Source of the DNA: Arenicellales bacterium
Lineage (GTDB): Bacteria > Pseudomonadota > Gammaproteobacteria > Arenicellales > JAHEKD01
Reading direction: 5' to 3'
DNA: 64,000 bases
Assembly: GCA_028284225.1 (NCBI GenBank)
Contig: JANQSD010000005.1
Coordinates: forward strand, 62,001 to 126,000
The position numbers were made by a program, and so were the translations under genes. Positions 11,776-13,146 of the stretch are shown here, piece by piece. The notes beneath the pieces were generated by a model. That model searched no databases. It saw only the letters and a program-made list of their open reading frames with translations, and was not told the DNA's origin. How positions within the stretch are numbered: position 1 is the stretch's first letter; every line of letters begins with the position of its first letter.

Positions 11776-12705
11776 GTGTCGGCCACTTATCATATTAATA
11801 GATCAAGGAATCTGACTGAGATATTGGATGCTCATGGATGGGCTGAAGCAAGCCCGCTGGATCACGCGGACTTTGGAATGTGGTGTGCCTATAACACTCA
11901 AATGAGAACCGCTGCTTGCCAGTTATTCGATAATCGCATTACTAGCATTCTGGATGACAAACTGAGGATGTTTGATCTGTTGTCTGAATTCAATCAGCAG
12001 AATCTGACGTTGCAAGTCTTTTCCGAACTTTCTGACTACCTGCATTATCTTGAATCAACGGGCTCGGAGGTTTTTTGCTTTTTAAAAACAACACTGGGGG
12101 CAGGTGGTTCTGGTGTTTACATGTTTAACAACTTGTGGGAACTAATTCACAAATTATTAGAATTAAAGGGTTCCACAGATTCAATGATTATTCAACAAGG
12201 CATTCATGATGTTGCCTTAATCGATGACAGAAAATTCAAAATCAGGACTTATGTTCTAGTTACAAACGATTGGCAGATTTATAGCTATAAAGATTCATTG
12301 GTGGTGGTCCATAAGGACCTATATTCACCTGAATCATCATCCGCGGATGTTCAATTATCTCCTAATTGCGGAAACACTGCCATTTTGCTTAGTGAAGTAC
12401 CAAATCTTTCAGGGGTAACTTCACAAATTCAAAACATTGTTGTTAAGACAATTGATTGCTTAAAACGAAAAACTGCTGTGATGACTAATACTGGAAGCTA
12501 TCATTTGTTTGGATATGATTTCATATGTAATGCAAATCTTGAAACCTTTCTCATTGAGGTAAATGGTTTTCCGAATACTGAACGAACAGATTCAATAGGG
12601 CGATCTCTGTCACAACGGATGATGATGGATTTAAAAGGCCTAATTATAGATCCTGCTATCTTCGGCTTGAATCCAAAATCAGGTGGATTTATTAAGCTTA
12701 ATTAA
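11776..12705 (+). CDS. tubulin-tyrosine-ligase-like / ATP-grasp protein
   Basis: 'FCFLKTTLGAGGSGVYMF', 'KFKIRTYVLVTNDWQIYSYKDSLV', 'FGYDFICNANLETFLIEVNGFPN'; GTG start. Confidence 0.65.
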   Translation: MSATYHINRSRNLTEILDAHGWAEASPLDHADFGMWCAYNTQMRTAACQLFDNRITSILDDKLRMFDLLSEFNQQNLTLQVFSELSDYLHYLESTGSEVFCFLKTTLGAGGSGVYMFNNLWELIHKLLELKGSTDSMIIQQGIHDVALIDDRKFKIRTYVLVTNDWQIYSYKDSLVVVHKDLYSPESSSADVQLSPNCGNTAILLSEVPNLSGVTSQIQNIVVKTIDCLKRKTAVMTNTGSYHLFGYDFICNANLETFLIEVNGFPNTERTDSIGRSLSQRMMMDLKGLIIDPAIFGLNPKSGGFIKLN

Positions 12706-12825
12706 GTTGACACCTTGTTCCGCATCTTTTAAGTTTGATATTGACTATCACTAATTTATCGAAGTAACATCTTCTAGTGGGAAATTAAAATTTGAAACTT
12801 TTACCGTTTAATTGAGGGACTACCG

Positions 12826-13146
12826 ATGTCAACAAAGGAAAACAGTACGAATCTAGAATCTGACCACCAACACACTCGTCGGAAAATCGTTAAATCAGCC
12901 TGGTTAAGTCCGATTGTATTAAGCATTAATTTACCTACTCATGCACAAACAAGTGCCACGACTGTTAGCCCAACAACGACGGTGGCCCCAATGACGACGG
13001 CGGCTCCAGCAACGACGATGGCTCCAACAACCCCAGCTCCAACGACGATGGCCCCGACAACCCCAGCTCCGACAACTCCAGCTCCGACAACTCCAGCTCC
13101 GACTCCTCAACCGGAACCCACACCACAACCGGAACCTATACCGTAA
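12826..13146 (+). CDS. small exported protein: Tat-like leader followed by Thr/Pro/Ala repeats
   Basis: 'TRRKIVKSAWLSPIVLSINLPTHAQTS' then 'TTxAP/APTTP' repeats and 'PQPEPTPQPEPIP'. Confidence 0.65.
   Translation: MSTKENSTNLESDHQHTRRKIVKSAWLSPIVLSINLPTHAQTSATTVSPTTTVAPMTTAAPATTMAPTTPAPTTMAPTTPAPTTPAPTTPAPTPQPEPTPQPEPIP
12955..13104 (+). repeat. low-complexity coding repeat, including 15-nt tandem units GCTCCGACAACTCCA
   Basis: read directly; best units 13066-13104. Confidence 0.85.

Follow-up and report, generated by a model that had tools for sequence, protein, structure and literature searches.

The window, a stretch of DNA of 64,000 nucleotides, contains on its forward strand a gene for an ATP-grasp ligase of the tubulin-tyrosine-ligase (TTL) type, followed by a gene for a small protein with a Tat-type leader. 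The pairing of a TTL with a leader-bearing protein is well supported. We propose, with a probability of about 0.6, that the two genes form an enzyme-substrate pair, in which the ligase adds an amino acid to a carboxylate of the leader-marked protein before its export. The analysis established membership of the enzyme in the TTL family, its intact catalytic residues, membership of the small protein in a family of leaders, and non-random adjacency of such genes in two TTL lineages. The lack of an RRE in the window TTL, a mature tail with just two Glu and the C-terminus, the rarity of the pair, and the dispersal of leader genes mostly away from any TTL count against the enzyme-substrate reading.

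The ligase and the small protein

The TTL gene (309 aa, GTG start) occupies positions 11776–12705, and the gene of the proposed substrate (106 aa, ATG start) positions 12826–13146. A sequence-only reading of this DNA had placed both open reading frames at these positions and the gap between them at about 120 nt; it measures 120 nt. The GTG start is supported in that it aligns with the ATG start of a homologous TTL from genome G064, and the small-protein gene has a counterpart after that TTL. Both genes are real. The TTGACA-like element noted earlier in the gap is present at 12707–12712, just 3' of the TTL stop codon, but no scored promoter includes it, and the number of promoter-like sites matches the chance expectation (5 found versus 4.6 expected). 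No relatives were found on phages, plasmids or viral contigs, and a PADLOC search for a defence system gave no match.

The TTL-type assignment made from the letters of the first gene is borne out by profile and structure databases. The protein scores 78.2 bits against PF03133 (curated cut-off 20.1, E 8.1e-22) and matches by sequence solved TTL structures in the PDB (E 1.5e-11); no other PF03133 gene was found in the window genome of 4.09 Mb. The ATP and metal residues are conserved, most of them being aligned directly to TTL. These are K62 (11959–11961), which we take to be the counterpart of a TTL ATP-pocket Lys and which is invariant in all 21 aligned bacterial TTL rows; the invariant ATP-grasp Lys K104 (12085–12087); R157 (12244–12246), conserved with Gln in one full-length row, G301; D248 (12517–12519), at the metal-ligand position of FGYDF that aligns with FGFDF of TTL; and the metal-ligand motif E261-V-N263 (12556–12564) in IEVNG, aligned with the same string of TTL. 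Complete rows show no variation at D248, E261 and N263. Given the conservation of these residues, the enzyme looks active. AlphaFold models of it have a mean pLDDT of 34–36 (single sequence and two-row alignment). Pfam searches found no RRE/PqqD domain in the window TTL or in the gene pair. Many PF03133 matches of ~310–340 aa were left out, because their alignment is confined to the final ~30 positions of the profile and they resemble ATP-grasp enzymes of other kinds. The PF03133 match in loci L045 and L047 was rejected as a D-Ala-D-Ala-ligase-like gene adjoining murB- and ftsQ-like genes.

The small protein has the Tat-like leader and the Thr/Pro tract ending in PQPEPTPQPEPIP, as described previously. 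Its Tat features, read in the protein sequence, are the twin arginine R18-R19 (12877–12882), also covered by the leader profile, and a predicted signal-peptidase site between THA and Q in LPTHAQ (12931–12948), which corresponds to the family motif LPAHAQ(T). Between them lies the leader motif W26-x-x-P29 (12901–12912), whose W and P do not vary in leader alignment A3. A profile built from only four leaders, those of G007, G301 and G022, recovers the window leader with E 1.7e-5 among 4354 ORFs. Hence chance does not account for this leader, and its membership in the family is not circular, as the profile comes from other genomes only. The predicted mature tail of 66 aa (12946–13143) is composed of 33% Thr and 30% Pro and contains two Glu but neither Asp nor Lys; the DNA underneath the tract consists of 15-, 18- and 30-bp tandem repeats. 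Both Glu, E97 and E103, are in the PQPEPTPQPEPIP end (13105–13143) and, together with the C-terminus, are the only acceptor carboxylates of the predicted mature tail.

The ATP-grasp fold and a Thr-rich tail with Glu near its end had suggested graspetide logic, in which intramolecular esters would link Thr hydroxyls to the two tail Glu with loss of water. However, the window enzyme matches TTL rather than graspetide or RimK-type ligase models (an NCBIfam search to E 10 matched no graspetide ATP-grasp model), and Lys is absent from the mature tail, which has just the two Glu. Reading the small protein by eye revealed neither a known graspetide leader or core motif nor a Thr/Ser/Lys–Glu/Asp spacing. 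Further, no common Thr/Glu spacing is seen among the partners of other TTL branches, which are longer proteins or carry EAEG repeats. We consider the formation of such esters highly improbable.

Recurrence of the pairing in other genomes

The pair had been put forward as a candidate modification system, with its conservation as the check, and the adjacency does recur beside TTLs of other genomes. A close homologue of the window TTL was found once more among 109 genomes of the order, in G064 (39% identity), so that the pair is rare (2/109) and this set, group A, numbers two. The G064 TTL begins with the same YHINRSR block as the window TTL, and 61 nt after its stop codon there is a gene of 170 aa (L022 2216–2728) whose product has a TTxAP / PEPTPAPEP tail behind the leader RRTTLKVAAWTTPSILAVSLPAHGQ. 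When 84,980 species genomes were scanned by pattern, only the G064 contig (L033, an uncultured Arenicella MAG) was returned.

Group B comprises TTLs of 361–367 aa from G022 and G007 of the same order and G301 of another order of the same class. They adjoin genes with the leader RRxxLK...WxxPVVESVVLPAHAQT, and the consensus for TTL-neighbour genes is RRxxLK...WxxPVVxSVxLPAHAQT. The TTL and leader genes are convergent in G022 and G007 and lie on the same strand in G301; in G007, three leader genes are located within ~6 kb of the TTL. The group B leader proteins (228–258 aa) are not Thr/Pro tails, and therefore the leader is the feature common to groups A and B. Thus a Thr/Pro-rich neighbour accompanies the TTL homologue in G064 but not those in G022, G007 and G301. 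A leader gene adjoins the TTL in 5/5 genomes, which under random gene order has a chance of ~9e-13 (a post hoc figure from rounded counts, with gene numbers estimated from genome size), because leaders number only 2 to ~20 per genome.

Group C TTLs (617–914 aa as called) carry a PqqD-like domain after the TTL domain; this domain exceeds the Pfam cut-off in L131 (E 9.2e-7) and scores lower in others. In each of the 25 loci examined, which come from G262, G372, G467, G595, G850 and, for a further 20, from the family of G850, a small protein with an RR/RQ leader and an EAEG/EGEG tail is encoded downstream of the TTL in the same orientation. Loci with the EAEG-tail protein are L048, L049, L050, L121, L122 and L131–L150. 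The distance from the TTL to the small protein is at most ~135 nt in 18 loci and ~530–680 nt in five, and in G262 and G372 there is one intervening gene. Some (EAEG)n tails end in GY. These tails resemble those of tubulin, and also the Glu-Gly repeats that TTLL5 glutamylates in RPGR (PMC13052805). In G068, a Glu-rich exported-looking protein is convergent with the TTL. Such a small neighbour was found in 0/6 of the group D TTLs, which are presumably Legionella-like.

In the TTL tree, groups A, C and D are well supported and group B nearly so; B clusters with C. A single clade of A and B was rejected (p-AU 0.0024), and hence the pairing spans separate TTL lineages. Alternatively, the adjacency might be incidental, the TTL-like enzyme ligating small molecules and the Tat protein being an independent mucin-like surface protein, perhaps O-glycosylated. 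The 120-nt gap allows separate transcription, group D TTLs have no such neighbour, Thr/Pro linkers occur in unrelated leader proteins of the window genome, and elsewhere PqqD-fused glycosyltransferases come after leader genes. Nevertheless, adjacency in all five genomes (~1e-12 by chance) and in 25/25 loci of the PqqD/RRE-fused branch makes incidental placement very unlikely.

Proposed reaction and relation to known systems

TTL enzymes are known for the eukaryotic tubulin code, and eukaryotic TTL/TTLL enzymes ligate amino acids onto tubulin tails. By the enzyme-substrate reading, the TTL-type ligase would act in the cytoplasm on the small leader protein and, with ATP, would activate a substrate carboxylate (the side chain of a PEP-motif Glu or the C-terminus) as an acyl phosphate. 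One or more free amino acids would then be joined to the activated carboxylate of the tail. The leader would mark the substrate and subsequently route it through the Tat pathway, and the signal peptidase cut would leave the modified Thr/Pro tail outside the cytoplasm. ATP-dependent ligation must be cytoplasmic and therefore fits a Tat-routed substrate. We infer that the neighbouring protein is the substrate, that the reaction is an amino-acid addition and that modification precedes export.

Eukaryotic TTL/TTLL enzymes (PF03133; TTLL5 acting on RPGR) have the same family and catalytic residues as the window enzyme, and their acceptors, like the proposed bacterial ones, are tails of low complexity that bear Glu, a likeness that is clearest for the EAEG branch. 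In contrast to tubulin, the proposed substrates are exported bacterial Tat-leader proteins, and the window enzyme, with its presumed chemistry, is compact (309 aa) and lacks the microtubule-binding parts. RRE/PqqD-guided RiPP systems (lasso peptides, PQQ) likewise have a leader-bearing ribosomal substrate beside a modifying enzyme; a sister TTL branch has a PqqD-like domain, and the substrate leader is conserved, as captured by the profile. Unlike in these systems, the window enzyme has no RRE in cis, the leader is also a Tat signal, and the mature product would be a Thr/Pro tail instead of a small cyclic peptide. Microviridin-type graspetides share the arrangement of an ATP-grasp ligase beside a short precursor, but the window enzyme belongs to a different ATP-grasp family and its neighbour has no known leader or core motif. 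RimK, the polyglutamylase of S6, is a bacterial ATP-grasp enzyme ligating amino acids to a protein tail, but of a different family with no match to the window TTL, and S6 is not exported.

Our search of the open-access literature yielded TTL relatives only in general ATP-grasp surveys; no bacterial TTL role, no account of the pairing and no paper with both "tubulin tyrosine ligase" and "PqqD" were found there. The combination of a TTL with an exported leader protein suggests a largely undescribed way to modify proteins before export. The recurring pairing gives a directly testable function of a bacterial TTL. It also bears on the origin of the enzymes of tail glutamylation and tyrosination, one branch having both an RRE-like domain and Glu repeats like those of tubulin tails.

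Leaders outside the pair and PqqD-linked enzymes

The leader profile detected dispersed copies in the window genome (7), G064 (2), G022 (~14), G007 (~20) and G301 (3), and no copies in G060. Most members of the family have no TTL neighbour. The window genome has seven leader genes and one TTL, which one leader gene adjoins; hence the leader does not require a TTL. These numbers, along with the motif common to the leaders and the cluster of three leader genes within ~6 kb of the G007 TTL, speak for a TTL that acts on every exported protein of the cell with such a leader, or on the leader as such, the neighbour being one substrate among several. However, G010 has leaders and no TTL of this kind, and the adjoining of the window TTL by a single leader gene also argues against so broad an action, which we consider unlikely.

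Thr/Pro richness was rejected as the conserved feature, because group B partners lack the tract and leader proteins without a TTL share it. The conserved feature of the partners is the leader (or the Glu-rich tail), and the Thr/Pro tract is a common linker in the window genome. TSATT... linkers followed by further sequence occur in several of its other leader proteins, the window protein being the domain-less version. Two of these proteins (L084 8258–9172, L088 8326–9108) combine Thr-rich linkers with an S74 endosialidase-chaperone domain at the C-terminus. Leader genes were also observed directly downstream of large CSLREA-type-like surface proteins (L086 7016–9467, L088 5483–9108).

Immediately after a leader gene, three genomes have a gene for a PqqD-fused glycosyltransferase (L091 1–2899, L099 4618–7401, L181 4154–7228). 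RRE-glycosyltransferase fusions were noted in the RRE-Finder paper (PMC7470986). In G016, an A-like N-terminal half of a TTL is fused to PqqD (E 4.8e-8 for the TTL part, 7.9e-9 for PqqD), and PqqD occurs in the window genome both as stand-alone genes and in a fusion with HprK. Taken together, the G016 fusion, the leader-adjacent PqqD-glycosyltransferases and the PqqD genes of the window genome suggest that the leader, besides being a Tat signal, may be recognized as a tag by modifying enzymes of the cytoplasm. The W/Y-x-x-P core of the leader resembles, in our view, the YxxP motif of lasso leaders that is read by RRE proteins. The leader motif provides a handle for mining further RRE-guided modification of exported proteins. 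We give even odds to a wider generalization: leader-marked exported proteins would be widespread, with tails modified in the cytoplasm before export by TTL-type ligases (PqqD-fused glycosyltransferases forming related systems); this would be the bacterial equivalent of modifying tubulin tails, and the two genes of the window its minimal form.

The enzymes next to LPAHAQ leaders in L091, L099 and L181 are PqqD-fused GT2/GT25 and GT7 proteins; G007 and G016 encode further PqqD-fused GT10/GT4, GT90 and sulfotransferase proteins. Beside the PqqD-TTL fusion of G016 (L034 148–7783) there are NRPS-like and asparagine-synthetase-like genes, and the fusion gene is cut short next to a transposase gene. 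In the window genome, a trio of nucleotidyltransferase-like, PqqD and HprK-like genes (L202 5300–8486) contains a possible trans-acting RRE.
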